DNA from: a virus
Direction: 5' to 3' (one strand)
IMG/VR virus record: IMGVR_UViG_3300021373_002055
Span: 1 to 54,252 of that record
DNA length: 54,252 nucleotides
Under the pieces are notes generated by a model that saw only the letters and a list, made by a program, of their open reading frames with translations, had not been told where the DNA came from and did not search any database. Made by a program: the position numbers and the translations under genes. Below are positions 10,002 through 54,252 of this stretch, piece after piece (within the stretch, counting starts at the first letter, position 1; every line of letters starts with the position of its first letter).

Positions 10002-11063
10002 TTATAATATTATATAATTTACTCCTACACTAAAATTGTGCCATCTTCTGTTCCAATATTTATTATATTTTCCTTCAAGGAATACTCCTAAACTTTTATT
10101 AAATTTATATCCAAATATCAATCCTCCAGAATAATCAATCCATTGACCGTCATTAAAATTGTGATATGAATATTCATTTGCAGTTTTAATATGAAGTGGC
10201 ATCAAGTTAGCCCAAGAATGAAGCCAAAAGTCTTTTGTATAGTGATAAAAATCAAAACCTAATACTAATGAATGATTCCATTGTAAGTCTAATGCGTTAC
10301 GTTCTTTTTCTGTATACTCTGCTAATACTTCTGGAACTACAACTGCTTCCCATACTTGTGTGTTTTCTGCAACTATATTACCTGCAGGATCAAAATATGT
10401 TACTCCACCATCACCATCAAATTCGATATTATATCCTTGTTGTAGTGCTAATTGTGTATAATGAAGATTTCCATCTGACAGTAACCATTCGTCTAATGGA
10501 TTATACCCATATGGTTCTGATATTCGTTGTACTGCACCAATATTAAATGATAATTTGTTTCCTAGTTTTTGTCTATAACGTTCTGAAGACTCAAAATACT
10601 GTATATCGGCAAATCCGTCTTGTACATATTCTACTTTTGCTATCCAATTTTTAGCAACATATCGTAAAAAGTGATCTTGATTAAAAAACGATGTACCTTG
10701 TTGACGTGTCCAATCTGCTTCAAATAAAAATTCAAATCCATTTATTTTTCCTATAGTAGCAGCGTCACCATATGTTTTTTCTGTACCATCAAAAAATACA
10801 TTAGTTCGATTTTCATATCCAAATCTTGCAATCTTTCTGATACCTAATGCAATAGAATAATCAAATGGTGTTTTTTCAGTAAACGTCTCTAATCCATCTG
10901 TTACAGAATAAACATCTACATCTGATACTGAATTACCTCCTGTTATTGCACCATAAAATGTAGAATATTTAAAAACTTTTTTAATTGTTTTTTTAAACTT
11001 AGAATCTGTTTGACTAAATGCAATGGTTGGTATTAGTAAAAATAATATTAATAATTGTTTCAT
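10002..11063 (-). CDS. Phage-encoded outer-membrane beta-barrel protein
   Basis: A 353-residue protein with a signal peptide (MKQLLILFLLIPTIAFSQ), then alternating aromatic/polar strands (SLVLGFDFYHYTKDFWLHSW, LIFGYKFNKSLGVFLEGKY) and a terminal strand NFSVGVNYIIL, as in Bacteroidota outer-membrane barrels. The final residue is Leu rather than the usual Phe. It starts inside the stop of the T9SS-type gene (ATGA), so the two are co-translated. I infer a partner or anchor for that protein, or a receptor-masking barrel. It does not read like PorP/SprF. Confidence 0.72.
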   Translation of the reverse strand: MKQLLILFLLIPTIAFSQTDSKFKKTIKKVFKYSTFYGAITGGNSVSDVDVYSVTDGLETFTEKTPFDYSIALGIRKIARFGYENRTNVFFDGTEKTYGDAATIGKINGFEFLFEADWTRQQGTSFFNQDHFLRYVAKNWIAKVEYVQDGFADIQYFESSERYRQKLGNKLSFNIGAVQRISEPYGYNPLDEWLLSDGNLHYTQLALQQGYNIEFDGDGGVTYFDPAGNIVAENTQVWEAVVVPEVLAEYTEKERNALDLQWNHSLVLGFDFYHYTKDFWLHSWANLMPLHIKTANEYSYHNFNDGQWIDYSGGLIFGYKFNKSLGVFLEGKYNKYWNRRWHNFSVGVNYIIL

Positions 11064-32497: not shown

Positions 32498-33754
32498 TTA
32501 AAATTTAAAAAATTTCTCGAATTGTTTAGCATCGGTAGTTGATATACTATCTCCACCAAATTTCTTGTATGTCTTTTTATATGTTGCATATACATTCATT
32601 GCATTGTCTGGATCTGCGAACATTTCGTGTAATGATAGTATAACATTAAATAATTCCTTTGGAATAGCCGTTTCTAATAATTCAACATGATTATGTGTCA
32701 ATTTATTAATGTCTTTAACAATTTCACAATACAGATGCGTATTATGAACTACCATTCGGGGCATTCCTTCTTGTGAATATCTGTCTAACCCAGTTGCTGT
32801 CTGTCCTCCTAAGTATTCATATGTAAAGTCTTTACATGCTGGGCAGTCAATACTACAAGGAACATGTTTAGTTTTGTCAATGCTTATTTCACCGTCTTTG
32901 CCTTGTTTAACATGAGTCTTTCTGCGATACTCAGCATTCTTTGGAAAATACAATTCAGTGAATGTCTGTGTCTTATAGTTGCCAGAATGAAGATATGTTC
33001 CAAATACTGGATATTGACCTGGTGAAGATGAGTCAGACATCAATTGTATGCGATTGTCTGTCAGTTTATTCAATAACTCTTGCAAGGTTGCTAATATAAA
33101 GAAATCTGATATTTTGCTTATTCCTAGCAAATGCACATATTCTACATGTTTCTTTTCAAATTCTCGTTCTTGAAGCATTAGTGCAATTACATACATAAAG
33201 TCTACTAATTTTTTAGGACCTCCTATACACCAACCTTTAAAGTCAAAGTCTTTGAACTTGTGATACCATTCTTTATATTCCTCACTAAATGTACCTTGAA
33301 TAACATTTAAGAATTTTGTCTTACCACTTTGATTTTTTTCAAACCATTTAAAATTGTCAAATGATATATCCATTGAGTCTTGAAATCTATTTTCAAATGT
33401 AACTCTAGGTGGTATATCTAAGTTTGCGGCTACATCACTATTAGCTTCTAACCAATGAAATATTTTTTCACGAATTGTGCTATCCCATTTAAGAGCACCA
33501 GTAGCAATCTGGAATCCTCCTGAGTCGCCAAATACAAATGTTTCGTCATCTAATCCCAATTGGTCACGAAAATCCATTTTCTTGTAATGATGTCCTGCTG
33601 TTACCAAAAAATATGGATGTCTCCACTTTTCGGGGTATTCTTTTGCAAAGAATCGCATTGTAGTGCCATCTTCAAATTTAGTATCCTTTTTAAATGCAGA
33701 TACCATGCTACCCGCAGATAATGACGGTATATATAAAAACTCTTTTCTATCCAT
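32498..33754 (-). CDS. dpdA: DpdA-like DNA 7-deazaguanine transglycosylase (TGT family)
   Basis: A 418-residue member of the tRNA-guanine transglycosylase superfamily. FGDSGGFQIATG (D77, base-binding Asp) is the family signature. NLDIPPRV, NVIQGTFSEEYKEWY, GWCIGGPKK and MSDSSSPG (D241, candidate nucleophile) follow. C300-x3-C304-x2-C307 and a later His give the zinc site. It lies between gp45 and gp43 genes, not with tRNA genes, and FolE, QueD and QueE are encoded 6-8 kb upstream. So DpdA, which swaps guanine in DNA for a 7-deazaguanine, is the best call; a tRNA-acting TGT is the alternative. Confidence 0.82.
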   Translation of the reverse strand: MDRKEFLYIPSLSAGSMVSAFKKDTKFEDGTTMRFFAKEYPEKWRHPYFLVTAGHHYKKMDFRDQLGLDDETFVFGDSGGFQIATGALKWDSTIREKIFHWLEANSDVAANLDIPPRVTFENRFQDSMDISFDNFKWFEKNQSGKTKFLNVIQGTFSEEYKEWYHKFKDFDFKGWCIGGPKKLVDFMYVIALMLQEREFEKKHVEYVHLLGISKISDFFILATLQELLNKLTDNRIQLMSDSSSPGQYPVFGTYLHSGNYKTQTFTELYFPKNAEYRRKTHVKQGKDGEISIDKTKHVPCSIDCPACKDFTYEYLGGQTATGLDRYSQEGMPRMVVHNTHLYCEIVKDINKLTHNHVELLETAIPKELFNVILSLHEMFADPDNAMNVYATYKKTYKKFGGDSISTTDAKQFEKFFKF

Positions 33755-35745: not shown

Positions 35746-38256
35746 TTATTTTCCAAAAGAAAAGAATTTATTCACTGTATTATTTTCTGGTAATTTACCC
35801 CAATTCATTGCAGCATAGAAATCATCTATTTTACCCTGCAGGTCTCGTTCGAACATCTTATCTCGATCAATATACATATTAACAAATTCAACTAATTCAG
35901 GTGGATCTTCGTATCCTCGAAGTGCCATAGTATCAAATCCATATGGATTATTTTTAAGATATCCCCATTTAACCTTTTCACCATTTTTAATTTCAGTAAC
36001 ATCAGTTTTTAATTGTGTTAACATATCATTAAAATTTATTGCAGATTTAACATGGGCAGGAGTTCCTGACATATATCCAGTAAATGGCTTACGTGCTTTT
36101 GTATATTTAGAAACCTCTTTGACACCAGAATTTTTCATTACGTCTAATACATTGGATTTTTGTATAGATTGTTTAAAGTCAAATATAACATCGGAAGTAT
36201 CTGTTTTGCTTTTTTCTTTCAACACACACCACAAAGTTTCTTTCATTATCTTTTTGAAATCTGTTGGGAAACTACTCCTAACTACATCTAAACCTTTGAT
36301 ATCCATTTTATCCGTAGGTTTGCCTTCTTTGAATATGACCCATTGAGCATATCTCTTTTTTGCTATCCAAAGACCAGATTTAGCAACATATTCCTGTTTA
36401 ATCTGAAATTGATGCTCTGTTGTATTGTGAAAATGCACAGCATACTGATCATACATGGTATTAACATACTTTTGTATTTCGGATGCTACTTCGTTTGTCT
36501 TTTCAATCATGAATTGTTCATCAGTTTCATCATATCCAGGATAACGCTTTTCTATGAGTGGTAATGAACTAACAAATGTAGAATCTGTGTCTGTATAAAA
36601 ACTAAATTCTGCTTTATTACCATTTGCATTGATAAAATGATCTTTACCAGTTTCTTTAGCATAATATGCATTGATTGCTTTTGCAGAAAATTTAATTACA
36701 CTTTGACCTGTTGCTGTAATAGCACCTGCATTGTCTAAGTCATGGAATCGGAAAGTCTTAAGTCCCAATACTCCATAAAATGAATTCAACAACACTTTTT
36801 GTGTTAATTGCAATGCATCATAAAATTTATATTCTTCAGAGCCAACTTCATACTCATCTCGCTTGTTTTTATATTCAACACGCTCAATAAACCATTTTTT
36901 AAGAATAGCTGGAAGAAACCCAATCCTAGATGTATCATATACCGCTCCATTACTAGCAACTGTATATTTGTTATCTTGTAGCCATTGTTTAACGTCTGGT
37001 ATAGTTTGATTGTTAATCGTAACAGATACAGCATCAGATTGTAACAAGTATTCTTGATTCCAATTTTTAATAACTCCAATTTTAGTCTCTGGAGATATAT
37101 TCAAACTCATAATAATACTAGGATACAGAGAAGTTAAATCTAAATCGTATATCCATTTATATAGCCCTGGAATTGGAGGCATTACATATGCTCCTGCTAA
37201 TGCATCTTGCCGTTCTTCTTCAATAAATCGAAATTGTTTGTTAGGAGCAACATATCCGTTACGCTTCAAGTCTACAATAGCAGCACCATCAAGATATTTA
37301 GATGCGTAATATACATCTTCATATGGAACATGTCCTTTATGGCATATAGTTCTTGCAAGATTGATGAGTTGTAGTTTTTCGTCTAATTCATATACCAAAT
37401 CAACATCTGTCATATTATAATAAGCAAACTTGTGAATGTCTTGTTCAAACAAATCATCTAAATCGCCATCATATTCAACTTTACCCTTATTGAGTTCAGT
37501 TTTACCAACAGTGTCTAATCTGTAATTAGGAAGTTCTGTGTATGTGAAGTTTTTATATAATTTAATATAATCTAAACTAGATACACCAAATATCTTCCAT
37601 TTTTTACTTTTAGGATTTTGTGTAACAATTCCTGCAGGCGAAAATTTCTTGATAGACTGATTGCCTAATACTTTTTTACATCTGCCTAATAAATATGGAA
37701 TATCATAACCGTCAGTATTCCAACCAGTTATAACAGTAGGCTGTATTTCTGCAAATGCGTTTATGAATCTAGTAAGTAAGTCTTTTTCACTGCGAAATAT
37801 TTCCAAAGTATATCCGTCACCTTGTATAACACTATCTTTGATGCGTTTACGTTCATCTAATATGAGTACTCTGCGGTCATTACCACTTTTATCATAATAT
37901 GCTATGGATGTTATAGCCGTTCTTACATCCTCAATAGTACTATATCCATTCTCATCTTTTGCCGTTTCAATATCAAAGAAAAAGTCTCTATGTCCTTTAG
38001 AAACAGTGTCATCTTCATAGTATAAATCTATTAGAGTGCGAACTTCTTCATTTAAATCAGATTCATATGCATCTGGGTTATCTCGATGATTGCCGGGGAC
38101 TTTAGCCAATTGTACACCATCCAATGTTTTGTATTTACCAGTGTCGGAAGGCAAATATCCATATGGTTGAAATGGAAACTTTTGATGACCTAATTCATCA
38201 TCCCATACGTGCATTATGCCTCCGCGCTTGTCATAACCTATTGCTTGATATGCCAA
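35746..38256 (-). CDS. 43: Family B DNA polymerase, T4 gp43-like
   Basis: An 836-residue replicative polymerase. Exo I is FFFDIETA (D95, E97), Exo II TGWNTDGYDIPYL and Exo III YNMTDVDLVYELD. Motif A is DLTSLYPSII, motif B KVLLNSFYGVLG and motif C YTDTDSTF, all intact, so both proofreading and synthesis are expected. Somewhat shorter than T4 gp43 (898). The start codon is TTG at 38254-38256; a stop codon lies in frame five codons upstream, so no ATG is possible before it. An AAAGGAAAG ribosome site precedes it. The start overlaps the previous gene by 19 bases. Confidence 0.95.
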   Translation of the reverse strand: MAYQAIGYDKRGGIMHVWDDELGHQKFPFQPYGYLPSDTGKYKTLDGVQLAKVPGNHRDNPDAYESDLNEEVRTLIDLYYEDDTVSKGHRDFFFDIETAKDENGYSTIEDVRTAITSIAYYDKSGNDRRVLILDERKRIKDSVIQGDGYTLEIFRSEKDLLTRFINAFAEIQPTVITGWNTDGYDIPYLLGRCKKVLGNQSIKKFSPAGIVTQNPKSKKWKIFGVSSLDYIKLYKNFTYTELPNYRLDTVGKTELNKGKVEYDGDLDDLFEQDIHKFAYYNMTDVDLVYELDEKLQLINLARTICHKGHVPYEDVYYASKYLDGAAIVDLKRNGYVAPNKQFRFIEEERQDALAGAYVMPPIPGLYKWIYDLDLTSLYPSIIMSLNISPETKIGVIKNWNQEYLLQSDAVSVTINNQTIPDVKQWLQDNKYTVASNGAVYDTSRIGFLPAILKKWFIERVEYKNKRDEYEVGSEEYKFYDALQLTQKVLLNSFYGVLGLKTFRFHDLDNAGAITATGQSVIKFSAKAINAYYAKETGKDHFINANGNKAEFSFYTDTDSTFVSSLPLIEKRYPGYDETDEQFMIEKTNEVASEIQKYVNTMYDQYAVHFHNTTEHQFQIKQEYVAKSGLWIAKKRYAQWVIFKEGKPTDKMDIKGLDVVRSSFPTDFKKIMKETLWCVLKEKSKTDTSDVIFDFKQSIQKSNVLDVMKNSGVKEVSKYTKARKPFTGYMSGTPAHVKSAINFNDMLTQLKTDVTEIKNGEKVKWGYLKNNPYGFDTMALRGYEDPPELVEFVNMYIDRDKMFERDLQGKIDDFYAAMNWGKLPENNTVNKFFSFGK

Positions 38257-38860: not shown

Positions 38861-39097
38861 TCATAACCTTTTTATATTGTCAATAGTTACACTGTTTCCT
38901 ACTATTCTTGATACTTCTTGTCCTTGTGCATCGATTCGCATAAAACAAGGAATATTTCTAACATTGTAATGGTTAGCCGTTGCCATATCTTGATCAATAT
39001 TAATTGTTCGAAATGGAACGGTTAACTGATTCAATTTAGGCTTTAATAATTTACATGGTCCGCACCATGGTGCTGTAAAATATAGTAATTGACTCAT
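38861..39097 (-). CDS. Thioredoxin (short, CGPC)
   Basis: A 78-residue thioredoxin: LLYFTAPWCGPCKLLKPKLN with the active-site CGPC, FRTINIDQDMATANHYNVRN, and IPCFMRIDAQGQEV with the cis-Pro loop. It lacks the first strand and helix of full thioredoxins (about 105 aa), as in many phage versions. The likely client is the ribonucleotide reductase. It overlaps the QueE stop by one base (TAATG). Confidence 0.9.
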   Translation of the reverse strand: MSQLLYFTAPWCGPCKLLKPKLNQLTVPFRTINIDQDMATANHYNVRNIPCFMRIDAQGQEVSRIVGNSVTIDNIKRL

Positions 39098-39867
39098 TAT
39101 ACTCCTCTTTCTGTATCATATGCAATGATGTGGTCTCTACCTGTCATATTATAACCATGTTCAGCAACCATTTCAAATACGAGTGGATACATTTTAATTA
39201 ATTCTTCTCTTGTGTCTCCAGCTGGCATAACATATGTTTTATGTTTTGGTATATTATGCAATACACGGAAGTCTTCAATTTCTTTTAAAGTTTCTTCGGT
39301 ACCATCCCATACTGGTTTATAATGATAGTCATGATGATATTTCAATGTCTTGCTAATAGCTTCATGATTCAATCTCAATCTGTTATGTGTCTTGATCATT
39401 TTTTCATCAACTATTTTACCGGCAGGAGTCTTAGTTCCGACAACCGGCACACTATTGCTAAACTTAGGTGAAAGTGACACTAAATCAAATGGCATTGGTG
39501 TTTCTATAAAATGACTACCTTCTGTTTCTACAGTTGTCATAATACCACGTTTAGATGCAAACAATGTTAATTCATTCATTAAAGCAGGATGCATTGTGGG
39601 AGAACCTCCCGTTATCATCATCTCTTTAACTTGTGGATTAGCATCATATATGTCTACAATGTCTTGAAAGCAAAATGTGCCTTTTTCTGGATGTATACTA
39701 GTATACCATGAATCACACCAACCACCTTCGCCAAAATAACATCGATGAGTACATCCGGTTGTTCTTATTGCTATAGTGGGCATTCCGAATCTACTGCCTT
39801 CACTTTGCACACATCTGTATACTTCTAATACAGGTAATCTTTTTTTATAATCTTCTATTCGTTTCAT
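39097..39867 (-). CDS. queE: QueE-like 7-carboxy-7-deazaguanine synthase
   Basis: A 256-residue radical SAM enzyme. VQSEGSRFGMPTIAIRTTGC carries the QueE Q-x-E-G...G-x-P signature. C39, C43 and C51 (GCTHRC...WCDS) bind the 4Fe-4S cluster, and MMITGGSPTMHP is the GGE-like SAM motif. It turns 6-carboxytetrahydropterin into 7-carboxy-7-deazaguanine. I place the start at the ATG at 39867, one base after the upstream stop; a longer frame would begin at 39915. Same string as queD and folE. Confidence 0.9.
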   Translation of the reverse strand: MKRIEDYKKRLPVLEVYRCVQSEGSRFGMPTIAIRTTGCTHRCYFGEGGWCDSWYTSIHPEKGTFCFQDIVDIYDANPQVKEMMITGGSPTMHPALMNELTLFASKRGIMTTVETEGSHFIETPMPFDLVSLSPKFSNSVPVVGTKTPAGKIVDEKMIKTHNRLRLNHEAISKTLKYHHDYHYKPVWDGTEETLKEIEDFRVLHNIPKHKTYVMPAGDTREELIKMYPLVFEMVAEHGYNMTGRDHIIAYDTERGV

Positions 39868-39868
39868 A

Positions 39869-40207
39869 CTAGAATGGGAGGTCATCGGCAGGGCCGACAT
39901 TACTATTGGTAACATTTATTAATTCATTTAATTTATTTTCTAATCGAGTAACTTTATCATGTAACATATCAAACTGATCTTTACGTACTAATATCTGTTC
40001 AGGTCGTTTATATATACTGTCTAAAAAGTCTATAGGCCATGTTGCAACTGATTTATACTTATCATTTTGCAATTCTTCTGGTAACATCTTGGTTCCTGAC
40101 TTGATGCCTCGACTTGCTGCTAACTCAGCAACTCGTATGCCGTCATCAGAGTTAGCAGTAGACCGACCTAAATAGTCATATAAAGATACATATACAGTTT
40201 TACTCAT
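39869..40207 (-). CDS. Hypothetical protein between queE and queD (112 aa)
   Basis: A 112-residue protein from the ATG at 40207, which overlaps the queD stop by 8 bases: MSKTVYVSLYDYLGRSTANS, then an acidic/helical middle, a C-terminal coiled coil (FDMLHDKVTRLENKLNELIN) and a disordered end. It is not QueC: the ATP-PPase SGGxDS motif is absent. Being locked between two pathway genes, it may aid modification, but I cannot support a function. Confidence 0.6.
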   Translation of the reverse strand: MSKTVYVSLYDYLGRSTANSDDGIRVAELAASRGIKSGTKMLPEELQNDKYKSVATWPIDFLDSIYKRPEQILVRKDQFDMLHDKVTRLENKLNELINVTNSNVGPADDLPF

Positions 40208-40661
40208 AACTTGCTGAATTTTTAGCGTGTTCGTATACTTCAACTTTACTAGCTCTTACACGACCGTCTGTTTCTTTAAGTAAGAATCCATTGATAACCT
40301 TATATAAAAACTCTGCAAACTTTTCGCACCCAGTATCATCAATAACTCTGAGTTGAATAATACCTTGTGCATCCATCATTCTGAATGAATCTAGCTCTGG
40401 GTCGTCGTTTGCTATGATTACTGTGTGATCTAATAACCAATCAAAATAATCTTTCGGAGCATATCCATTTATTTCGTGTTTAGAACGTTTCATACCACCA
40501 AAGTCAAATACCCAGTTGCGATGATCCAATTCTCCTTCAAACCATACTCGAAATGATAGTGCATATCCATGTAAATAACTACAATGCGTTTCAGTTGCTT
40601 TCCATTGTCGGAAACAAGTTGAGTATCCGTCAAATAATTTAGTTGATGTAAATTTAGCCAT
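40200..40661 (-). CDS. queD: QueD-like 6-carboxytetrahydropterin synthase
   Basis: A 153-residue T-fold enzyme. YSTCFRQWKATETHCSYLHG gives the Cys27-x3-His31-Gly core, VFDFGGMKRS the conserved Asp-Phe-Gly strand, LLDHTVII the catalytic Asp-His and VEVYEHAKNSASY the final Glu strand. The second zinc His of E. coli QueD (H33) is Tyr here and the first (H16) looks like Cys, so the metal site differs. It converts dihydroneopterin triphosphate to 6-carboxytetrahydropterin. Overlaps folE by 8 bases. Confidence 0.88.
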   Translation of the reverse strand: MAKFTSTKLFDGYSTCFRQWKATETHCSYLHGYALSFRVWFEGELDHRNWVFDFGGMKRSKHEINGYAPKDYFDWLLDHTVIIANDDPELDSFRMMDAQGIIQLRVIDDTGCEKFAEFLYKVINGFLLKETDGRVRASKVEVYEHAKNSASYE

Positions 40662-41319
40662 TATATCCTTTTACAAATTCATAATATTCATTTCTAGTTG
40701 CTGGGTCGTCTTTGAATGCACCTGTCAGTTTGCTTGTCTTCATTGATGCACCTCCGTGCTTAACACCTCTACATGATACACAATTATGGGTAGCATCAAT
40801 CATAACAGCAACACCTTTATTGTCATTGATAATAGTATCAATTGAATTGTGTATAGCAACAGTTAGTTGTTCTTGAATAGCACCACGTCTTGCAAAATGC
40901 TCTACTAATCTATTCAATTTACTCAAACCAATTACTTTGCTATCGTTACCTGGAATATATGCTACATGCACTTTACCCATAATGGTTTGATGATGATGTG
41001 AACACATTGATGTTAATGGAATACCTCCTTCGAATACCATACCGTCATATCCATCACTAGGAAATGCAGTAATATTAGGAGCACCATTATATCTACCTGC
41101 CCATAAATCGTTTACATATGCTTTTGCAACACGATGTGGTGTATTGTCTGAGTTTGGATCATTTCTCCAATCACATTTAAGTGCATCTAAAAACAAACCA
41201 AATGCATTTGCTGCAGCATTAATCATTGTAGCTTTCTGATTTTCAGTGAGAGGCTCATTCTGAGCCACACCATTAGCAAAGCCTTCTTTAACTAGTTCTA
41301 TACTTTTCTTTATTGTCAT
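40654..41319 (-). CDS. folE: GTP cyclohydrolase I
   Basis: A 221-residue FolE: NTPHRVAKAYVNDL, then TSMCSHHHQTIMGKVHVAYI (zinc Cys and His, active-site His), GLSKLNRLVEHFARRGAIQE and NCVSCRGVKHGGASM (second zinc Cys). It opens GTP to 7,8-dihydroneopterin triphosphate. With QueD and QueE downstream it feeds the 7-deazaguanine path and not folate alone. It has an AAAGGAA ribosome site. Confidence 0.93.
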   Translation of the reverse strand: MTIKKSIELVKEGFANGVAQNEPLTENQKATMINAAANAFGLFLDALKCDWRNDPNSDNTPHRVAKAYVNDLWAGRYNGAPNITAFPSDGYDGMVFEGGIPLTSMCSHHHQTIMGKVHVAYIPGNDSKVIGLSKLNRLVEHFARRGAIQEQLTVAIHNSIDTIINDNKGVAVMIDATHNCVSCRGVKHGGASMKTSKLTGAFKDDPATRNEYYEFVKGYNG

Positions 41320-43514: not shown

Positions 43515-44870
43515 CTACCCTAACGTTCCGCCAAGATCTTTGAACTTTTGCGCAAGATTTTTTTTCACCATGTTTTCTCCTGTTTTCATAACTTGTGTAG
43601 TTTGCTTTCCTTGTGTAGTCTGTGGTTCAAAGAATTGAAACTGACCATTGTTTGTGTTTATTTTACACGGTAATGTTATACCGTCTGGACCGAATCTATT
43701 TTTAATTACATGACCTCTACCTGTGCCTGACATTTTATCTTCTACTTTTCTAGAAAGTGACATTAAAAAGTCTGCTACCATTACTTTACCATATGACGAT
43801 GCAATCTTGTCTGCTTCAATAACATCTTCTTCTAATGCAGACCTGCCTGCTTGTGATGCTGTCCAAACTGGTATGTTATATTCGCCGGCCATACCTCGCA
43901 TTTCTTCATATAATTCTTCTAATGCTTCATGTTTATCTTTTTTAGCGTTAACCTTTAAAAGATCACCATAATCAATAATAACCAGATCTGGACTATTTCC
44001 TAGCATAATAGTTTTTTCTATATGAGCCTTGATACCCATTACTCCTATAGATTTAGTTGGATAGTGTTTTATAATTAACTCACCTTTCAACGTGTCCATT
44101 TTTTCTTGTATGTCTTCCTGATAGTTTTTCAAGTTCTGTGCATTAATACCAGTTACTACAGAATCATATCTTTGACCTACGTAGTTTTCATTAAGTTCTA
44201 ATGTATAATGAATAACAGTTTTGCCGGCTTTAACTGCATTTGCTCCTATATTGATAAGCAACCAAGACTTACCAATACCAGCTGGAGCCATTACTACTCC
44301 CAATTCTCCTGGTGCTAATCCACCGTCCATTAAATCGTCAATAACATCCCAACCAGTTGTCATTGTATGTCGGGCTGCTTCGTCATAACGAATTGCTACA
44401 TTGTCTTTGTATTCTAATCCTATATCAGTATCTGCACCAGCTTTCATTGCACTGTCCATAATGCTTTTAATTTCATCGTAACTACCCATCTTGAGTAATC
44501 CGACACTATCCATTATGGCTCTTTTAATCTCTTGATTTTTGCAAAATTTGAGTATTTCGTCTTTAACAAATTTAAGGTCGTCTGATTCCATGTAACGAAA
44601 AACTTCCTTTAATTGTTCTAATATGGCGGTCTTAAGCACATCATTCTCTATGCCAGTAACCTTGACTTTTAATACGTCTTTTGAAGGAGGAGCCTTATAT
44701 TCTCGGAAATGTTCTAATATAACGTCCAATAGCCAACTATTAGCATCTGACTCAAAATAGTCTGCTTGTATAATATCAGTTATTTGTTGTAAAAATATTC
44801 TGTCCGTAAACATTGCGGCTAAAACTTTTACTTGAAAGCTCCATCCGTATTCACTTAATTTATCTGTCAT
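43515..44870 (-). CDS. 41: Replicative helicase, T4 gp41-like (DnaB type)
   Basis: A 451-residue RecA-core helicase. Residues 1-150 form a helical N-domain like DnaB/gp41. GLAPGELGVVMAPAGIGKSW holds Walker A, VIHYTLELNENYVGQR motif H1a, LVIIDYGDLL Walker B, and WTASQAGRSAL the glutamine sensor. It should form a hexamer and unwind DNA ahead of gp43. Length matches T4 gp41 (475). Confidence 0.9.
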   Translation of the reverse strand: MTDKLSEYGWSFQVKVLAAMFTDRIFLQQITDIIQADYFESDANSWLLDVILEHFREYKAPPSKDVLKVKVTGIENDVLKTAILEQLKEVFRYMESDDLKFVKDEILKFCKNQEIKRAIMDSVGLLKMGSYDEIKSIMDSAMKAGADTDIGLEYKDNVAIRYDEAARHTMTTGWDVIDDLMDGGLAPGELGVVMAPAGIGKSWLLINIGANAVKAGKTVIHYTLELNENYVGQRYDSVVTGINAQNLKNYQEDIQEKMDTLKGELIIKHYPTKSIGVMGIKAHIEKTIMLGNSPDLVIIDYGDLLKVNAKKDKHEALEELYEEMRGMAGEYNIPVWTASQAGRSALEEDVIEADKIASSYGKVMVADFLMSLSRKVEDKMSGTGRGHVIKNRFGPDGITLPCKINTNNGQFQFFEPQTTQGKQTTQVMKTGENMVKKNLAQKFKDLGGTLG

Positions 44871-44904
44871 ATTAGATAATAATAAAAATTAAAATAAAAT
44901 CAAA

Positions 44905-45957
44905 TCATTTTTGTGTTTGTTTTGCGAATGCATCCAAAGACAGCCAGGTTCGAGTCAACCAATCTGGAAGATTCTTCATTACTGCCCACATTTTATCTTC
45001 ATAGAATAAACGTTGAAACTCAGCACGATTTAGACTAGAAATTTCTTGATCCATTATGCCTCGTATTTTAGAAGATACATTTGCAGATATATCTAGAAGT
45101 TTTATATCCATAAGTTGCCAATTTTTTTGTAAGGTTTCTCGATGATCTAAAATTTTCTGATATTGTTTGGTTTCAGTTACAAGATCGTTACTTTTTTCAA
45201 ATAATTCTTCTAATGTAACTTGACGCTGATTTGCTATTTCTGGAATAAGTTTCATTATAGTCTTTGGACCTATTCCTGCTACGCCTGGTATATTGTCTGA
45301 CTTATCACCAGTAAATGATCTGTATAAAACCATGTTGCTGGGATGTACACCAAACTCATCTATGATTGCTTGGGTGTCATACATTTTCTTTTTGATAGGA
45401 GACCATACTTGAATACGGTCATCTACTAGTTGATAGAAATCTCTATCGGTTGAAACAATTGTAATCTTCTTACATGTTTCTTTATACATTTGTGCTATAT
45501 ATGCAATAGTGTCATCTGCTTCTATTCCATCCATTGCTAAAAAAGTTACAGGCAAGTTATCTAAATATGAAACTAATCGACTAAACTGTTTTCTCATTGA
45601 TTCTTGCTCATCTTCTATACTTGTTTCATGATGATCGAATCTACGCAGTTTAGTTTTATTGGCTCTGTTTGCCTTGTAACCTTTGTAAATTTTTCTTCTT
45701 TTAGCGTTACCGCCACGTCCATCAAATGCAATAACACATCTGCTTGGTTTAAAGTCTCTGACAGTTTTACCTATAGAATATAAAAATCCAGTTATACCAC
45801 CTATATGGTCACCGTCTTCGTTATATGCCGGCGTTGCCCCAAAACTTCGAATAAAGGTATTGAGCCCGTCAAATACCATGATATGATCATTAGCATCCTT
45901 TGGGCTCGTTTCCTTTTCTTTTTGTAACTCTTTAAATAATCGTTGATACTTATTCAT
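44905..45957 (-). CDS. rnh: 5'-3' exonuclease / RNase H, FEN family
   Basis: A 350-residue flap nuclease. MVFDGLNTFIRSF supplies the first Asp, CVIAFDGRGGNAKRR the second, MDGIEADDTIAYIA and STDRDFYQLV the metal cluster, and FTGDKSDNIPGVAGIGPKTI the H3TH loop. T4 RNase H of this family removes RNA primers and flaps. It sits between helicase and UvsX genes and overlaps uvsX by one base. Confidence 0.9.
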   Translation of the reverse strand: MNKYQRLFKELQKEKETSPKDANDHIMVFDGLNTFIRSFGATPAYNEDGDHIGGITGFLYSIGKTVRDFKPSRCVIAFDGRGGNAKRRKIYKGYKANRANKTKLRRFDHHETSIEDEQESMRKQFSRLVSYLDNLPVTFLAMDGIEADDTIAYIAQMYKETCKKITIVSTDRDFYQLVDDRIQVWSPIKKKMYDTQAIIDEFGVHPSNMVLYRSFTGDKSDNIPGVAGIGPKTIMKLIPEIANQRQVTLEELFEKSNDLVTETKQYQKILDHRETLQKNWQLMDIKLLDISANVSSKIRGIMDQEISSLNRAEFQRLFYEDKMWAVMKNLPDWLTRTWLSLDAFAKQTQK

Positions 45958-47126
45958 TATCCTTCTTCATCAATTACTTCTTCATCGATAACAACGTCAT
46001 CAATTCCTCCGTCTACACCTGCCTGATATTTGAAGATATAAGCGTCGCAGATTCTTTTGTATAACCTTTCTTTTGCTTCAGGGTTTTGCATAACCTTACT
46101 AACAAAATCTTTGCTCTGGAATTTCATTTCTCCAAAGACTTCACCAGTTTCATGATCTATATCTTCCAATGTATACCATGCTCCTGCTTGTTTAACCAAT
46201 TTGAATTTCTTCATTAGGTTCAACCAACCACCGAAATTGTCAATACCGCTATCATAATAGATTTCATAATCAATTTTACGATGTGGTGGACCCATACGGT
46301 TTTTAACTACCTGCACTTGAGTTTTGCTACCCACTACCTGTTCTGCACCATTAACTGTTGCTTTAATCTGACCGGTATTTTTTAATCGAAGTCTAACAGA
46401 TGCATGGAAAGGAATAGCCTTACCACCTGCTGTTGTCCATTGATCTCCAAATGACACACCCATTTTAACTCTGAGTTGATTGGTAAATATTAAACAGATA
46501 CGCTCCCGAGCAATCCAATTTGTAACCTTACGCATTGCTTTTGACAGAATGATTGATTTAGAGGTTGCATAACCATCCTTATCATATTCTGCAGACATTT
46601 CAATTTTTGTAGATGCGCCCATAATTGAGTCTACTACAATAGTAACTAATCTGTCTTTGTCAGATTTACGTACCCCGTCCACAATAGTTTCAATTGTTTC
46701 AAAAATCTCTTCTACTGTTTCAAGAGGTACGTATAGCATTGTTTTCAAATCGGCACCGATTGCAGTTAAGAATTCAGAACTAGTTGCTGACTCTGTGTCT
46801 ATATAGACAGCCAGACCACCTTTCTTTTGTGTTTCTGCTAAAGTGTGTGCTGCTAGCAATGATTTACCCGAAGCTTCTAACCCTGTTATTTCGGTAATTC
46901 TACCAACAGGAAACCCTCCGCCTGGTCTATTAGATATTGCTAAATCCAAAGAATCACATCCTGAAGATATCCACTCCTTAACATTACTTGGCGAATCGTC
47001 ATCGCCAGAAAGAAAGAATGCGGTCTTTAACGCTTGACCTTTAAACTGTTTGTTTATACTATCGGCCAATGTGTTTGCTAACGCATCTTCCAGTTCGTCC
47101 TTACTTTTGCTTTTTTTCTTTGCCAT
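45957..47126 (-). CDS. uvsX: RecA-like recombinase UvsX
   Basis: A 389-residue recombinase. ITEITGLEASGKSLLAAHTL holds Walker A, GLAVYIDTESATSSEFL the catalytic Glu, VTIVVDSIMGAS Walker B, and LIFTNQLRVKMG plus TAGGKAIPFHASVRLRL loops L1/L2. An acidic tail (DDVVIDEEVIDEEG) resembles RecA tails. It drives strand exchange and recombination-dependent replication with gp32. It has an AGGAG ribosome site at 47134-47138. Confidence 0.92.
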   Translation of the reverse strand: MAKKKSKSKDELEDALANTLADSINKQFKGQALKTAFFLSGDDDSPSNVKEWISSGCDSLDLAISNRPGGGFPVGRITEITGLEASGKSLLAAHTLAETQKKGGLAVYIDTESATSSEFLTAIGADLKTMLYVPLETVEEIFETIETIVDGVRKSDKDRLVTIVVDSIMGASTKIEMSAEYDKDGYATSKSIILSKAMRKVTNWIARERICLIFTNQLRVKMGVSFGDQWTTAGGKAIPFHASVRLRLKNTGQIKATVNGAEQVVGSKTQVQVVKNRMGPPHRKIDYEIYYDSGIDNFGGWLNLMKKFKLVKQAGAWYTLEDIDHETGEVFGEMKFQSKDFVSKVMQNPEAKERLYKRICDAYIFKYQAGVDGGIDDVVIDEEVIDEEG

Positions 47127-47136
47127 TTAAAGACTC

Positions 47137-47922
47137 CTACTTGTTAAATAAATCGTTGAATGCTGATGCTACATCTGTTTGTTTTTCTTCAGTTTTGGCT
47201 TCTGCCTTTTCCTCAGTTTTTGCAGATGTATCTGCTGTGGTGTTAGATGATGTATCAACGTCAGCACTGTCATCTTCCGGATTCATCCACGCTTTAAGAG
47301 CGTTTTCTAACTCTTCATAAGTTGGTTCTGGGAAAATGTCTGTGATTACAGGCTGATTCATAATCTTCTCTGCAATACCTTTGTCTTCGGTTGCAGGTGT
47401 TGTGTTAGGTTTAACACGAATTGTAGTCTTTGGATAACCTCCGCCCTCTGCAGGAATAAACTCTACGTCGATGTCACGACCATTCATTAAGTCGGTAATA
47501 TCACCATAGTCTGGATCGGACACAATGGAAAGCAATTCTGTGTAGATCGTTTTACCGAATCCCCAAAATTTAACACCTTCTGCTTCTTTACCGCGTACGA
47601 TAACAGGAACATAAGTTCTCATTTTAGGTTCAATTTTACGACCCATCAGCCACTCATCTTTGTCTCCGGTCTTCTTGAGTTTTTCTGCAAATTCAACTAC
47701 CGGGTCTGCATTACCAAATGATACTGGTGATAGCATTGACCTTTTGGCAATGTCATAATGAAAATACAATTCTAGAAATGGATTGTCTTTGCGGTGAACG
47801 TAAGGTACAATTCTTACTCTTGTTTTTGGGCCAGCTTCTGGCTTCCATAGGTTGTTACGACGATCGTCGGTTTTGTTTAATTGGTTAAGTTTTGCCTTGA
47901 TGGCGTCTAAGTTAAGTCCCAT
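47137..47922 (-). CDS. 32: Single-stranded DNA-binding protein, T4 gp32-like
   Basis: A 261-residue gp32-type SSB: basic N-terminus (LDAIKAKLNQLNK), RVRIVPYVHRKDNPFLELYF, the OB-fold segment GVKFWGFGKTIYTELLSIVS and the acidic C-tail ending VASAFNDLFNK for partner contact. The usual zinc site is gone: the protein has no cysteine at all, and the loop after FHYDIAKRSMLSPVSFGNAD has lost the Cys ligands. The gene has a strong AAAGGAG site. Confidence 0.88.
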   Translation of the reverse strand: MGLNLDAIKAKLNQLNKTDDRRNNLWKPEAGPKTRVRIVPYVHRKDNPFLELYFHYDIAKRSMLSPVSFGNADPVVEFAEKLKKTGDKDEWLMGRKIEPKMRTYVPVIVRGKEAEGVKFWGFGKTIYTELLSIVSDPDYGDITDLMNGRDIDVEFIPAEGGGYPKTTIRVKPNTTPATEDKGIAEKIMNQPVITDIFPEPTYEELENALKAWMNPEDDSADVDTSSNTTADTSAKTEEKAEAKTEEKQTDVASAFNDLFNK

Positions 47923-48408: not shown

Positions 48409-49128
48409 TTAAAATCCAGGTACTTCATCAAACCCCTGGCCAGGATCTTTTCGTTTCAAATAGTAACCAATCTCTCGGTCATCGATACCATACTGTTTAG
48501 CTACTTGTGGATCTTCAATTTCCATGCTTTCAACGTTACCATCTTCATCAAATATCATTTTTAAATCTATGGTAGTTCCGTCTTGTATTAGTATTTCACA
48601 ATCTGCTTTAAATTCACTGCTTTCTAATCTGGTTTGATCATATGCTGGATTGCCGTCGTCATCCGTTTGATTGGTAGACTCGGCATCTGTTATTAAAGTT
48701 TGTATACCGTCTATGACACGATCTTTTGTTAACAATGTTTCTGGTTTGAATGGTAACCAAACCGTATTGAAATTGGTGCTACCATCGATGCTATTGATAA
48801 ATATTTGAATTCTTGCTGCATCAGTCATTTCAATGGTATCCGGATCCATTTCAGTATTTTCACCGTTATAATCTTGATATGCATCAATTGAAAATTTAGC
48901 TAATGAATCAGGATCGTGTGCTATATAATAAACATCTCGACCTTCATTTCCATGATCTTCTACAACATCCATGTCATCATACTCGCCAAAATCAATTACG
49001 TATTTCTTTCCATAATATGTAAATGAAGCTACATCTGTTTTGTAGTCGAATTTTACATTTTGTAATGCAGGTTCTTTGAATTGCCTACGAGACATTTGTT
49101 CTGTTATTAAATCTTTAAGTCGAATCAT
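48409..49128 (-). CDS. Protein with capsid-targeting-type leader (239 aa)
   Basis: A 239-residue acidic, beta-rich protein. The N-terminus MIRLKDLITEQMSRR has the shared leader with ITE as possible gp21-type site (Gln after it is not ideal). The body (DVASFTYYGKKYVIDFGEYD, DLKMIFDEDGNVESMEIEDP) shows no enzyme motif. It ends FDEVPGF. A box ATATTTAT lies upstream (49150-49157). Likely internal or structural, unproven. Confidence 0.6.
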   Translation of the reverse strand: MIRLKDLITEQMSRRQFKEPALQNVKFDYKTDVASFTYYGKKYVIDFGEYDDMDVVEDHGNEGRDVYYIAHDPDSLAKFSIDAYQDYNGENTEMDPDTIEMTDAARIQIFINSIDGSTNFNTVWLPFKPETLLTKDRVIDGIQTLITDAESTNQTDDDGNPAYDQTRLESSEFKADCEILIQDGTTIDLKMIFDEDGNVESMEIEDPQVAKQYGIDDREIGYYLKRKDPGQGFDEVPGF

Positions 49129-49161: not shown

Positions 49162-49545
49162 TTACCAAGAAATCTTCTTGAAAAATATTAATTCAACTAC
49201 ACGGTAGCTGTCGTCGTCTGTTAGTATAAATGAATTTTGATAGTGTGACCAATCTACTTGATATGATTTATCTAAAACTCCGTTGTTGACTCGACGTATA
49301 ATTGCGTTAAGAGCATTGACTGTATACAGAGTATTGGTTTCTTTTTTACGATGTATGCTTATGGTGTTTTGTCCCCGTCGAGTTGTGCTATCAGCATTGT
49401 AGGTGCAATACAATTGATCTTGTTGATCTGCATTGGAAAACACGAATATTCGTTGTTCTGGTATAGTGTAACTTTGTTGTATGTAATCAGTTACAATGTT
49501 TAAATCTGTCTGATGAGCGAATGTGCAAAGTAGTTGTGTTTTCAA
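49162..49545 (-). CDS. Hypothetical protein (127 aa)
   Basis: A 127-residue protein, MKTQLLCTFAHQTDLNIVTD, with alternating beta-strands (QRIFVFSNAD, LYCTYNAD, NTISIHRKKE) and a final hydrophobic VVELIFFKKISW. No motif recognised. It lies in the structural/replication border region. Function unknown. Confidence 0.6.
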   Translation of the reverse strand: MKTQLLCTFAHQTDLNIVTDYIQQSYTIPEQRIFVFSNADQQDQLYCTYNADSTTRRGQNTISIHRKKETNTLYTVNALNAIIRRVNNGVLDKSYQVDWSHYQNSFILTDDDSYRVVELIFFKKISW

Positions 49546-49555
49546 TTGTTTAGTC

Positions 49556-50494
49556 CTAGAATTTTTTTGGCTGTATAAATATTTTAAAAACTATAGATAC
49601 ATTATTTCCAATGTCGAATTGTTTTGCAAATTCTCCAGTTTCTCCGGTCGTTATTGCTGCAATAATTTGTTCTTTAAAATTAGTTTTTTCTAATCCAGCT
49701 TCAACTTGTGTAGTTAATATGTCTGAAATTTGTGATTCGGTACCTAACTGTGAATAAATTTTTTCTCCTAATGATATTCTGCGCAATAGTTGTGATGAAA
49801 TAATATATACCGGACTAATTGAGTTAAATTTATAGCCTCCACTATTTCTAAAACCAAATATATAAAATTTATTTGGATCGTTAGAAAAAAATGTAGTTTG
49901 TAAATTTAAATTAATATTACCAGTAGTTGCAGTTTTAACTTCAAATTTATTGTTACCATCCTCCCCGTCTACACCTTTTGCTTGGGATGTTACATGTTGA
50001 ATATTTGTGTTAAATTTAGAATTCAAGTAAGTAAATATAACTGCTTCTGCTGCTATGCCTGGAGATGTGTAATCAGATATTGGCAAATTAGTTTTATTAT
50101 TATTTCCTAGTGTATAGTGCCCATCATATCCGTCAGTATATTGGTCAATGTCTGTAATTGAAAATACTGTTTCGAAACTAGGTTTATAATGTTTTTTAGT
50201 ATATTCTGCTAATTGTTGTAACTGACCAATTTTGTTTTTAGTTTTTAACAATTGCAATAAATCCGCAAAATCATCAGTTGCTGAATTTGGATCTGATGAT
50301 AACATACCAGATGTCTCTTCTTCATCTTGTTCTTCTAATCCCATTGCTCTGCGCACAATTGCATCTTGTTGAGGTTCGGGTAAATCAGTTTGTTCGCGTA
50401 AAACGTTGCGCAACTCAATGTAATCTTCGGGGCAGTCTGGATAACCTTTTTCTAATCGGTATGTCCATTCTGTAATTATAGAATCTATATTCAT
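49556..50494 (-). CDS. PD-(D/E)XK nuclease-like protein with TEW-type N-domain
   Basis: A 312-residue protein. Residues 1-35 (MNIDSIITEWTYRLEKGYPD) match a short N-terminal module that I recall from several proteins of marine T4-like phages. The C-part has GIAAEAVIFTYLNS, then GVDGEDGNNKFEVKTATTG with D176 and E185-x-K187, followed by a beta-strand region. This fits the D...ExK core of restriction-type nucleases. Host DNA cutting or packaging-related cutting is possible. The gene overlaps the polymerase-like gene by 4 bases. Confidence 0.6.
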   Translation of the reverse strand: MNIDSIITEWTYRLEKGYPDCPEDYIELRNVLREQTDLPEPQQDAIVRRAMGLEEQDEEETSGMLSSDPNSATDDFADLLQLLKTKNKIGQLQQLAEYTKKHYKPSFETVFSITDIDQYTDGYDGHYTLGNNNKTNLPISDYTSPGIAAEAVIFTYLNSKFNTNIQHVTSQAKGVDGEDGNNKFEVKTATTGNINLNLQTTFFSNDPNKFYIFGFRNSGGYKFNSISPVYIISSQLLRRISLGEKIYSQLGTESQISDILTTQVEAGLEKTNFKEQIIAAITTGETGEFAKQFDIGNNVSIVFKIFIQPKKF

Positions 50495-51813
50495 AACGTG
50501 ATAGTTCTCATTTTATCATAAATATCGCCAACTTTACATTTCACCGGAAATTTTCCCTGTTCCATGATAGTTTTTATTTGTGGCAATATGCCTTTGGCTT
50601 CTGATAAAGGAACATCGAATAGAACGGAGTCATATGTATACAATATTATACATGCTTCATAGTCTTGCAGATATTTTTGTAGTTCTGCTAATTTTTTAAC
50701 AGACACCTCTGTTTCAGTGGCCTGCAAATAATAGTTAAACAACTTATATGATGTCATGTTGGTGACTTGATCTTTGCAAATGCTACGACCTATTATAGGA
50801 GTTTTTATGCAACCACTGCGCTTCCATGTAGCCCAAAGCTTAAACACAAAATCATTTACTTGCTGAAAAAATGGAATCGTTAAAAACTCTTTGTCTATGC
50901 CTCCATATAAAAGTCTAAACGTAATAGCTTTACTTTCTTCTCTTTGTTGTTGTGTTAATTCTTCAACACCAAAATAAAAGCGACCCAAATAGTCATGTAT
51001 ACTAGTTTCAGGCAAATCATATCCAATAAGTTTAGCAATCAGTCTAACATGATAACTGTCAAAATCCATTTCAACCAAAGCACCTTCAGTGTGTCTGCTT
51101 ACAAATGCCGCTCTAGTTCCATCTTCTTTGTTCATTGCCGCATAATTGAATCCACCATATGCATTGCTTGGTCGACCCGTTGTGGTATGATAGTTGTATC
51201 TGGAATACACTCGATTGCCGTTAACTAGTTCTGGCATTCGAAAAGTGCTGTTAACTGCTAATCCATTTTGTTCTATGTCAGCAAACGTTCTGGGATACAA
51301 CTCATTGAAACGTTTATATGAATCGGTGAGTTTTGCATTGACAATCATGGGCCATGCATAATGTCTAATCTTCTGACACATAGCCAAATGTTGCTGCATT
51401 GGTATTACTGCATTTACTTGTGGTAATGATTTGAGTCGACGCCAATAAAAATCATGAGCTGGTGTAGGATAATGAGACTCATCATATGCTTCATTATATG
51501 TATACCACCACAAAGTCTTTACATCCCATACGGCATCGTTTCCACCGGTTTGAAGCCACCGCTTCTTGTCATGGATAAATATATTATCTAGTTGCAAGAA
51601 CTGTTTTAGATATTGTGAAAAGCCCCTTATTTGTTCTGTATGAGCCATTGGTATCAACCATTCACTTTTATCTTCACAATAAATGTAAACTGCGTGAATA
51701 TCTTGTTGTGATTCGTGGGTAGTTGGATTTGCATAGATAGGAACTAGTAATGTCTTGTTTTCTGCTATTATACTTAGGCAGGTCGTAACATCAGATTCAT
51801 AGTCCACTATCAT
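50491..51813 (-). CDS. Compact family A DNA polymerase-like protein
   Basis: A 440-residue Pol I-like protein. TGRPSN (212-217) and the adjacent NYAAMNKEDGTRAAFVSR match the template-binding region. Motif A is ALVEMDFDSYHVRLIA (D250, D252), motif B R291-x3-K295-x3-F299-x3-Y303-G304, and motif C LYTYDSVLFD, where the usual H-D-E is Y-D-S (Y394, D395, S396). The first 150 residues may be a degenerate exonuclease domain. This is a second polymerase besides gp43. Activity is uncertain because the motif C Glu is missing. Confidence 0.78.
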   Translation of the reverse strand: MIVDYESDVTTCLSIIAENKTLLVPIYANPTTHESQQDIHAVYIYCEDKSEWLIPMAHTEQIRGFSQYLKQFLQLDNIFIHDKKRWLQTGGNDAVWDVKTLWWYTYNEAYDESHYPTPAHDFYWRRLKSLPQVNAVIPMQQHLAMCQKIRHYAWPMIVNAKLTDSYKRFNELYPRTFADIEQNGLAVNSTFRMPELVNGNRVYSRYNYHTTTGRPSNAYGGFNYAAMNKEDGTRAAFVSRHTEGALVEMDFDSYHVRLIAKLIGYDLPETSIHDYLGRFYFGVEELTQQQREESKAITFRLLYGGIDKEFLTIPFFQQVNDFVFKLWATWKRSGCIKTPIIGRSICKDQVTNMTSYKLFNYYLQATETEVSVKKLAELQKYLQDYEACIILYTYDSVLFDVPLSEAKGILPQIKTIMEQGKFPVKCKVGDIYDKMRTITL

Positions 51814-51837: not shown

Positions 51838-52470
51838 TTACGAATCCAATCCGTTGATGTCTGTGGGTTTGATAAAGTCTGTGTCGGTATAGTATTGAAG
51901 TGGGTCTGTTAATATGTTGGAGATGCCTGGTAATTTTACTTTAGCTAAATTTATTTGTTGTCGATTTTTTGATATTACTCCTAGAGTCGACACAATACCA
52001 TTAAAAGAATCTTGTTTTGGACCTGAAATATACCATTTTATTTCAATAATTGAATATAATTTTTTATCAGAAATATTACTAGATATATCGTCATATGATT
52101 TTTTTTCAATTTCTTGTATACTATTACTATCATATTTCTTAATAAAATATCTTGTTATATATCCTGTTGATATATTTTCTTTAGTTAAGTTTACTGGTAT
52201 TAAAGAAACTGATTTAAATTTTGTTTTAATCTTTGGTTTTAATCTTCGGTATTCAGTTGCGCCAGGATTGTTAGGTGTTGGTGCTTGATATGCAATTAAT
52301 TTTTTTGATATTTTAGCATTCCATTTTGATTGTGTGTAAATTTCTCCAGTTAAGTATCGATGATATGCTCCTTTATATTCAATATTATCTGTAGTCATCC
52401 ATTGTTTACCTTTAGTAAACAAATTATTAATAGTTTCATCTGCAGTGTAATATGTTTTTTGTCTGCTCAT
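51838..52470 (-). CDS. Tail/baseplate-type structural protein (210 aa)
   Basis: A 210-residue protein: YYTADETINNLFTKGKQWMT, EYKGAYHRYLTGEIYTQSKW. I recall this T-A-D-x-I-x-x-N-L...Y-x-G-x-Y-H-x-Y-x-T-G-E-x-Y wording from structural proteins of marine myoviruses near baseplate genes. No enzyme motif. It follows the baseplate hub-like gene by one base. Exact position in the virion unknown. Confidence 0.6.
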   Translation of the reverse strand: MSRQKTYYTADETINNLFTKGKQWMTTDNIEYKGAYHRYLTGEIYTQSKWNAKISKKLIAYQAPTPNNPGATEYRRLKPKIKTKFKSVSLIPVNLTKENISTGYITRYFIKKYDSNSIQEIEKKSYDDISSNISDKKLYSIIEIKWYISGPKQDSFNGIVSTLGVISKNRQQINLAKVKLPGISNILTDPLQYYTDTDFIKPTDINGLDS

Positions 52471-52471
52471 A

Positions 52472-54252
52472 TTAATCTATATTAGGCCTCATTATACATT
52501 TAACTTTAGTAGTCCACATTCCATCTGTCCCAACGGTATGGTTTATTCCTATAATACTAAATACCGTGTTTGTTGTGTATTTTTTTGGTAATGCAGCAAA
52601 AGACAATACGTCGCCATATCGCAGTCCATTAATGCCATCGATGGTAAATGATGCATCGAATGGGAATATTGGTGCAGTTAATTGCTGTGACTGACGTATG
52701 TCAGATCCTGGATATTTTAGATATTCTAACAATGCAGTTTTTAGATCCGCTTCTGTTTCGGAGTCTTGTGGAGATAATCCATATTTTTCTGCTGCTTGAT
52801 TTAAGTTTTTTATTGCTTCTGTATGTTTACTTTTATAATTTTTGATAATATTGTTTAGACCGGCTACGTCGTCCGCATTAAACATAAAATTCATATATGG
52901 TGCAATTTTTTCTTCTGATATGTCAGTACCCTGATTTAAAACATAGCTAAGATTTTTTACACTTGTAGGCAACTTTGCAGAGAATTGAAAATCGTGAACT
53001 ATTGTACCAATAGGATCATTAGCAAACATTGGAACATTGTATGGAATAACATTTTCTCTGTCTATATATCCAGCGTCAGCAAATACTATTTTAGTATTGT
53101 CTTCTTTTAATTCAGTTAATACCAATTTAATTGCCCCTGCAGTTGCATTTTTAACTAAGTCTGATATTGATTCTAAAAATTTTCCAATTTTAAATGAATT
53201 TTTATTAGTAGATAAACTATCGATAATTGCGTCAATTGCTCCTAGATTTATAAAGATGCGGGTTGGAAATATTTTAGATGAACTATCTGTACCTGCTGAT
53301 TGATATATTCCTGGCCAATCTTGATATATATTTTTATCTTGCAAATTTTGTTGATAATCGAGTGTGTTTCTAACAGCAAATTCATAATATCCAGTTTCTC
53401 CATACCAATTCATATCTCCTGGAATAGATGGGTCTTTTGGTAACAACAAAACATTTTCAGGATCATTTGATTTTAAATGTTTATAATATGTACTAGCAAT
53501 CTGAATGTCATCACATAAAACACCTATACCTTGTTGTTTACTAGCTACTTGTGTGTTTATAAAATGTATTAATGCGCCTATTGTTATGTATCGATTTTCA
53601 TCAGTTAATATTTCTTTCGCTCGTTTTTCTTCTTTTTCAAATTGTTCTTTTTGAGCAGCTTCTTCTTGTTCTGCAGCTAGTTGTACAGTTTCTAATTCAG
53701 TTTCTATTGCTGCTATTTCTGTTTCTATTCCAGGTATAACTGTTAGATTATTTGTATCATTTGCAAAGTTTAATTCTGCATTTAAATCTTCTAATTGTGT
53801 TAATAAATTTTGCTCTGTTCCTTCTGTTTGTGATGGTTCATAAACAAATTGTCTTGTTATATTTGTTGTAAATGGTTGGCCAAACAATATAAATCTGTCA
53901 GTGGTACTAACATTTGACTCACCTTCAATAAAGAATGGCATTATTCCAGTAGACATATCATTGGTAGCAGCTTTAAATTTGCCTCGCAATTCGTCATCTA
54001 CTATACCTGACAATGTTTCGTAAAATTCTTTTTGAGTATCATCGTCTGGTTCTGTAACTTCTGGCTGAGCTGCATTTAATTCTATGTTGCTTGTTGCAGT
54101 TAATTTTGATTTTTTTTCTTTTTCTGGATCCATTAACATTGATACGTCTGTATATATATCACTAGTACCAGTTAATGAAATTGTTATTTCTACCGATGCA
54201 TCTGCTGCATATGATAAATCAAAATTAGTTATTAATCCAGTAAATGTATATG
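52472..54252 (-). CDS. Baseplate hub-like protein, 5' end outside window
   Basis: The frame is open to the right edge without a stop, so the ATG at 54139 is internal and the true start lies beyond 54252. Upstream residues YTFTGLITNFDLSYAADASV fit the strand pattern of tail hub proteins. The last 60 residues (FTIDGINGLRYGDVLSFAAL, then VFSIIGINHTVGTDGMWTTK) match the closing domain of gpD/gp27-type hubs. The middle holds a long coiled coil (EDLNAELNFANDTNNL...EEEAAQKEQFEKEEKRAKEI, with breaks). It would connect tail tube and spike. Confidence 0.72.
   Translation of the reverse strand, partial: YTFTGLITNFDLSYAADASVEITISLTGTSDIYTDVSMLMDPEKEKKSKLTATSNIELNAAQPEVTEPDDDTQKEFYETLSGIVDDELRGKFKAATNDMSTGIMPFFIEGESNVSTTDRFILFGQPFTTNITRQFVYEPSQTEGTEQNLLTQLEDLNAELNFANDTNNLTVIPGIETEIAAIETELETVQLAAEQEEAAQKEQFEKEEKRAKEILTDENRYITIGALIHFINTQVASKQQGIGVLCDDIQIASTYYKHLKSNDPENVLLLPKDPSIPGDMNWYGETGYYEFAVRNTLDYQQNLQDKNIYQDWPGIYQSAGTDSSSKIFPTRIFINLGAIDAIIDSLSTNKNSFKIGKFLESISDLVKNATAGAIKLVLTELKEDNTKIVFADAGYIDRENVIPYNVPMFANDPIGTIVHDFQFSAKLPTSVKNLSYVLNQGTDISEEKIAPYMNFMFNADDVAGLNNIIKNYKSKHTEAIKNLNQAAEKYGLSPQDSETEADLKTALLEYLKYPGSDIRQSQQLTAPIFPFDASFTIDGINGLRYGDVLSFAALPKKYTTNTVFSIIGINHTVGTDGMWTTKVKCIMRPNID

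Follow-up and report, generated by a model that had tools for sequence, protein, structure and literature searches.

A divPolA1-type family A polymerase with a conserved Y-D-[S/A] motif C and a candidate partner protein in a phage genome encoding gp43

The DNA analyzed here (the window) is a virus record of 54,252 bases. Positions 50491-51813 of its minus strand form a single open reading frame with an ATG start that encodes a protein of 440 amino acids, and the plus strand across the same interval is rich in stop codons. Residues 192-428 of this protein matched Pfam DNA_pol_A (PF00476) with an E value of 4.8e-13, exceeding the curated cut-off. Residues were paired with those of E. coli Pol I column by column using a profile alignment, and the motifs were located on the minus strand by alignment and conservation. 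The template-strand motif TGRPSN (residues 212-217; 51163..51180) contains R214, the equivalent of Klenow R668. Motif A, DFDSYHVR (residues 250-257; 51043..51066), carries the aspartates D250 and D252, with D250 pairing with D705 and H255 with the sugar-gate residue E710. Motif B, or O-helix, R-x3-K-x3-F-x3-YG (residues 291-304; 50902..50943), comprises R291, K295, F299, Y303 and G304, the first four of which pair with R754, K758, F762 and Y766. The segment NYYLQATET (residues 360-368; 50710..50736) keeps both N360 and Q364, the equivalents of Klenow N845 and Q849, and in motif C, LYTYDSVLFD (residues 391-400; 50614..50643), Y394-D395-S396 pairs with H881-D882-E883. A preliminary description of this locus had reported a 440-residue family A polymerase with the TGRPSN region, the motif A aspartates, a full motif B and Y-D-S in place of H-D-E, all of which were found here; the histidine at the sugar gate and the kept N360 and Q364 had been overlooked.

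An AlphaFold2 model of the polymerase, built from 20 rather similar sequences, had a mean pLDDT of 77.5 and aligned with Bst DNA polymerase I over 405 residues (Z 24.8, rmsd 4.2). In this fold alignment the N-terminal part of the model corresponded to the exonuclease region of Bst Pol I. This exonuclease-like domain (residues 1-130; 51424..51813, minus), as delimited by model, fold alignment and conservation, does not contain the catalytic carboxylates. Relatives were aligned as a set of 197 sequences consisting of the query, IMG/VR sequences, sequences from three phage genomes and sequences from metagenome-assembled bacterial genomes; across residues 5-130 of this alignment E60 and D97 were the only conserved acidic columns and no DxE pair was present. 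Within the same domain H33, H58, K83, K84 and D97 (residues 33-97; 51523-51717, minus) were nearly invariant, which suggests that the dead exonuclease domain retains some job. The thumb (residues 136-182; 51268..51408, minus) appears shortened, with only two helices in the AlphaFold2 secondary structure; a truncated thumb is described for the family in PMC11348598.

A family B DNA polymerase, gp43, was located with Pfam at 35746-38256, and the co-existence of two polymerases proposed in the preliminary description is therefore real. The same description had placed the 440-residue protein near late genes and away from gp43. Tail-type genes do lie directly upstream, but the polymerase also heads a conserved replication block (43515..47922, minus) consisting of a gp32-like SSB (47137-47922), UvsX/RecA (45957-47126), a FEN 5'-3' exonuclease (44905-45957) and a DnaB-like helicase (43515-44870). 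In testable loci, the genes found downstream of the polymerase were those for a 127-amino acid protein (107/108), gp32 (65/65), UvsX (49/52), FEN (46/46) and the helicase (40/40). On the upstream side, two genes encoding proteins of 210 and 555 amino acids (51838..54139, minus) are conserved neighbors which in relatives come after tail sheath and tube genes; one relative has the sheath and tube genes upstream and a homing endonuclease inserted between the polymerase and the 127-amino acid protein. The larger genomes tested encode another DNA polymerase, which is a full PolA in Flavobacterium phage immuto and belongs to family B in the others, namely Mel-JY01, LR756508 and four IMG/VR contigs of 110-173 kb. 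No family B match was obtained in some shorter contigs or in the 93-kb contig G003, a result which is uninformative in fragments. With respect to promoters, the late-promoter motif TATAAATA was seen 12 times versus 14.3 expected, which is chance level, and sigma-70-like sites were likewise at chance level.

Also adjacent to the polymerase is a gene for a 312-amino acid protein (49556-50494, minus), with a 4-base overlap at the polymerase stop codon. This protein was matched in 102 of 119 relative loci and is nuclease-like by eye; neither Pfam nor PHROG assigned it to a family. Together with the products of 4837-5565, 48409-49128 and 1960-2709 (all minus), it begins with a short motif ending in LLE, ITE or IVE. 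These N-terminal motifs (MIRLKNILLE, MIRLKDLITE, MISMKALIVE and MNIDSIITE) resemble T4 prohead-protease head-targeting peptides, and the proteins that bear them may be packaged internal proteins. Elsewhere in the window, a 791-amino acid protein (11060-13435, minus) has a signal-peptide-like start, many repeats of the GCTDPxSFNYNPxANVDDGSC type and a C-terminus resembling a type IX secretion sorting signal, features suggesting that the host belongs to the Bacteroidota and that this phage protein is secreted. A 405-amino acid protein (7760-8977, minus) gave a weak match, under the curated cut-off, to a Pol beta-type nucleotidyltransferase. A TGT/DpdA-like gene (32498-33754), a radical SAM (QueE-like) gene (39097-39915), a PTPS (QueD-like) gene (40200-40661) and a GTP cyclohydrolase I gene (40654-41319), all on the minus strand, suggest 7-deazaguanine DNA modification.

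The 127-amino acid protein (49162..49545, minus) contains a highly conserved core, NTIxxHRKKxxNTLYTxNALN. It belongs to no Pfam or PHROG family and has no sequence relative in the PDB. Its structural model (pLDDT 79.8) has an alpha/beta arrangement of a common kind, for which no clear relative emerged; the matches obtained, to ferredoxin-like folds, were weak (Z ≤ 6.2). The start codon of the gene is TTG, and in most relatives TTG or GTG stands at that place, a conserved weak start that could keep expression low. When 50,697 phage records were searched, the 127-amino acid protein and the polymerase family occurred in exactly the same 6 records; two further records matched by the polymerase query contain PolAs of Mammaliicoccus phages, and the one inspected was an ordinary long PolA with H-D-S. 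Both genes were present in 169 fetched loci, and nearly all fetched loci with only one of them end close to the gene present. The clear exception was a locus (L157) in which a partial polymerase copy has 4 kb of sequence downstream of it but no companion. Because of the 6 shared phage records and the 169 common loci, we regard the 127-amino acid protein as a candidate partner of the polymerase, a partnership inferred from this co-occurrence.

The divPolA1 family was named by Yutin et al. (2024, Virol J 21:200, PMC11348598) from 14 phages, including immuto, and is described there as a divergent PolA lying beside a regular family A, B or C polymerase, with an inactivated exonuclease domain, a truncated thumb, conserved palm residues and replication genes downstream. 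The reading of the window protein as a second, accessory polymerase in the preliminary description agrees with this published family. Against immuto divPolA1 it gave a tblastn E value of 4e-51 at 30% identity over 92% of the query, and in a tree all divPolA1 sequences tested, including that of immuto, formed one clade with a support of 100/100 and a long stem, apart from regular PolAs. Because of this match and the single clade, the window polymerase can be assigned from its sequence to the known divPolA1 family as a new member, an assignment also consistent with the reading frame, the Pfam match and the fold. Homology to immuto, occurrence in addition to a regular DNA polymerase, the palm residues, exonuclease inactivation and downstream replication genes were all found, and no feature distinguishes the window protein from other members. 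Origin as a paralogue of the main PolA of immuto was rejected, the divPolA1 clade being separate.

Comparison with other polymerases was informative in several respects. The window protein resembles the Klenow and Bst fragments in fold, in the order of motifs A, B and C, in the two catalytic aspartates and in the equivalents of K758, F762, Y766, N845 and Q849. It differs from them in size (440 versus approximately 605 residues), in the apparently short thumb, in the missing DxE of the exonuclease domain, and in the substitutions E710 to H, H881 to Y and E883 to S, so that neither the H-D-E motif C nor the sugar-gate Glu of classical DNA polymerase I is present. The divPolA2 proteins of barbaviruses are likewise divergent PolAs found alongside a regular DNA polymerase but, by the description given in PMC11348598, are without a recognizable thumb or exonuclease domain and have variable gene neighborhoods. 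T7-type single-subunit RNA polymerase shares Ser as third motif C residue and absence of the motif A Glu, whereas the window protein has a DNA polymerase-type motif B and 440 rather than 883 residues. Membership in the T7 RNA polymerase family was rejected, as the profile alignment to T7 RNA polymerase was not meaningful.

Every one of the 193 relatives with sequence at motif C read Y-D-[S/A], and His stood at the Glu710 position in 191 of 191, these counts being of sequences, many closely related, rather than of independent events. Across approximately 190 relatives the two metal-binding aspartates D250 and D395 were invariant or nearly so, together with H255, K295, Y303, Q364 and Y394, as were the equivalents of F762 and R668. 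Among the other core catalytic residues checked, the motif B R754 equivalent alone was often replaced in relatives, about half of the sequences lacking it. Ratios of dN/dS against close relatives were 0.09-0.14, with a value of approximately 0.1 in the palm. Regular phage PolAs themselves vary at motif C: H-D-S is found in those of a T5-like phage, two Herelleviridae groups and HMO-2011, H-D-A in that of a Gordonia phage and H-D-Q in the main PolA of immuto. In the regular phage PolAs sampled (L239, L240, L241, L243, L244 and L097) the motif was often one of these three and not H-D-E. T5-type polymerases are active replicative enzymes. Since ordinary phage PolAs also lack the motif C Glu, a serine in third position is by itself unremarkable, and the real signature is the pair of Tyr for His in motif C and His for Glu710. 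The earlier view of a broken motif C and of lost synthesis is not supported, given a kept catalytic Asp, an invariant Y-D-[S/A], a dN/dS near 0.1 and the absence of the Glu from several regular phage PolAs, a T5-type enzyme among them; the survey of homologues proposed at the time returned Y-D-[S/A] and not H-D-E. By this comparison Y-D-[S/A] is a strictly conserved family signature rather than a broken site. A literature search found no text on Y-D-S or on the 127-amino acid companion, and the text of PMC11348598 does not mention the fixed Y-D-[S/A], the E710 to H change or the companion; the figures of that paper may show them.

We predict, with a probability of roughly 60%, that divPolA1 is an accessory DNA polymerase which retains catalysis, has a short thumb and no proofreading, and fills gaps or extends strands. 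This prediction is drawn from family, fold, the metal-binding aspartates and nucleotide-binding residues (R754 excepted), the lost exonuclease carboxylates and the linkage to SSB, UvsX, FEN and helicase genes, and the authors of PMC11348598 likewise concluded that the family is active and takes part in replication. Such an enzyme would act distributively at recombination intermediates and Okazaki joints, and together with the separate FEN nuclease would amount to a split Pol I, with UvsX and SSB also involved. The 127-amino acid protein would be a dedicated cofactor which may compensate for the missing thumb, and the altered gate and Y-D-S/A motif would tune substrate choice without abolishing synthesis. 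Linkage to replication genes does not fix the role, because replication led by gp43 makes use of those genes as well. Counted against this prediction are that E710H might impair dNTP use, that the R754 equivalent is dispensed with so often, and that the upstream tail-gene linkage may permit a late or virion role.

The same departures could suit a translesion or template-tolerant polymerase which copies damaged or 7-deazaguanine-modified phage DNA. Exonuclease loss, a short thumb and altered active-site residues fit low-fidelity enzymes, and the window has TGT-like and queuosine-pathway genes; in immuto, DpdA and Que genes are annotated. However, the window TGT/DpdA-like gene is unmatched in the three distant genomes of immuto, Mel-JY01 and LR756508, and immuto has a DpdA of its own while none was detected in Mel-JY01 or LR756508, yet the polymerase is kept. 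The role in copying modified guanines considered previously is thus weakened, and we judge this explanation unlikely. Complete loss of catalysis, with the protein retained as a structural cofactor, would accommodate the substitution of H881 and E883, and of R754 in many members; the invariance or near invariance of the metal-binding aspartates and nucleotide-binding residues makes this very improbable, and the low palm dN/dS also argues against it.

Use of ribonucleotides through an opened sugar gate, for primer synthesis or extension or for short RNA synthesis, falls somewhat behind the translesion explanation. Glu710 is the steric gate (PMC13228545) and is replaced by His in every relative covering it, and T7 RNA polymerase, with G542 and S813 (H-D-S), departs from DNA polymerases at this site and at the third residue of motif C as well. 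H-D-S is nevertheless also normal in phage DNA polymerases, motif B is of the DNA polymerase type and no primase is missing: of seven genomes tested, six have a Toprim primase gene and the seventh (Mel-JY01) a gene annotated as primase-like; immuto also has an annotated primase. With primases encoded in these genomes, a role as primase substitute is unlikely, and it was rejected as the main reading. A more ambitious proposal, to which we give a slimmer chance again, is that divPolA1 and its companion combine into a two-component polymerase whose sugar gate is altered and which makes or extends ribonucleotide-containing strands during recombination-dependent replication; such an enzyme would be part-way to an RNA polymerase and processive via a new kind of cofactor.

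What had appeared to be a lesion in one gene proves to be the fixed signature of a phage enzyme family that is widespread. IMG/VR contains at least 590 matching stretches, compared with the 14 genomes of the naming paper (PMC11348598), and the 127-amino acid protein is now a specific candidate for a companion gene. Activity combined with a relaxed choice of sugar or template would make the polymerase a new tool enzyme, and would help to account for the retention of two polymerases by such phages.
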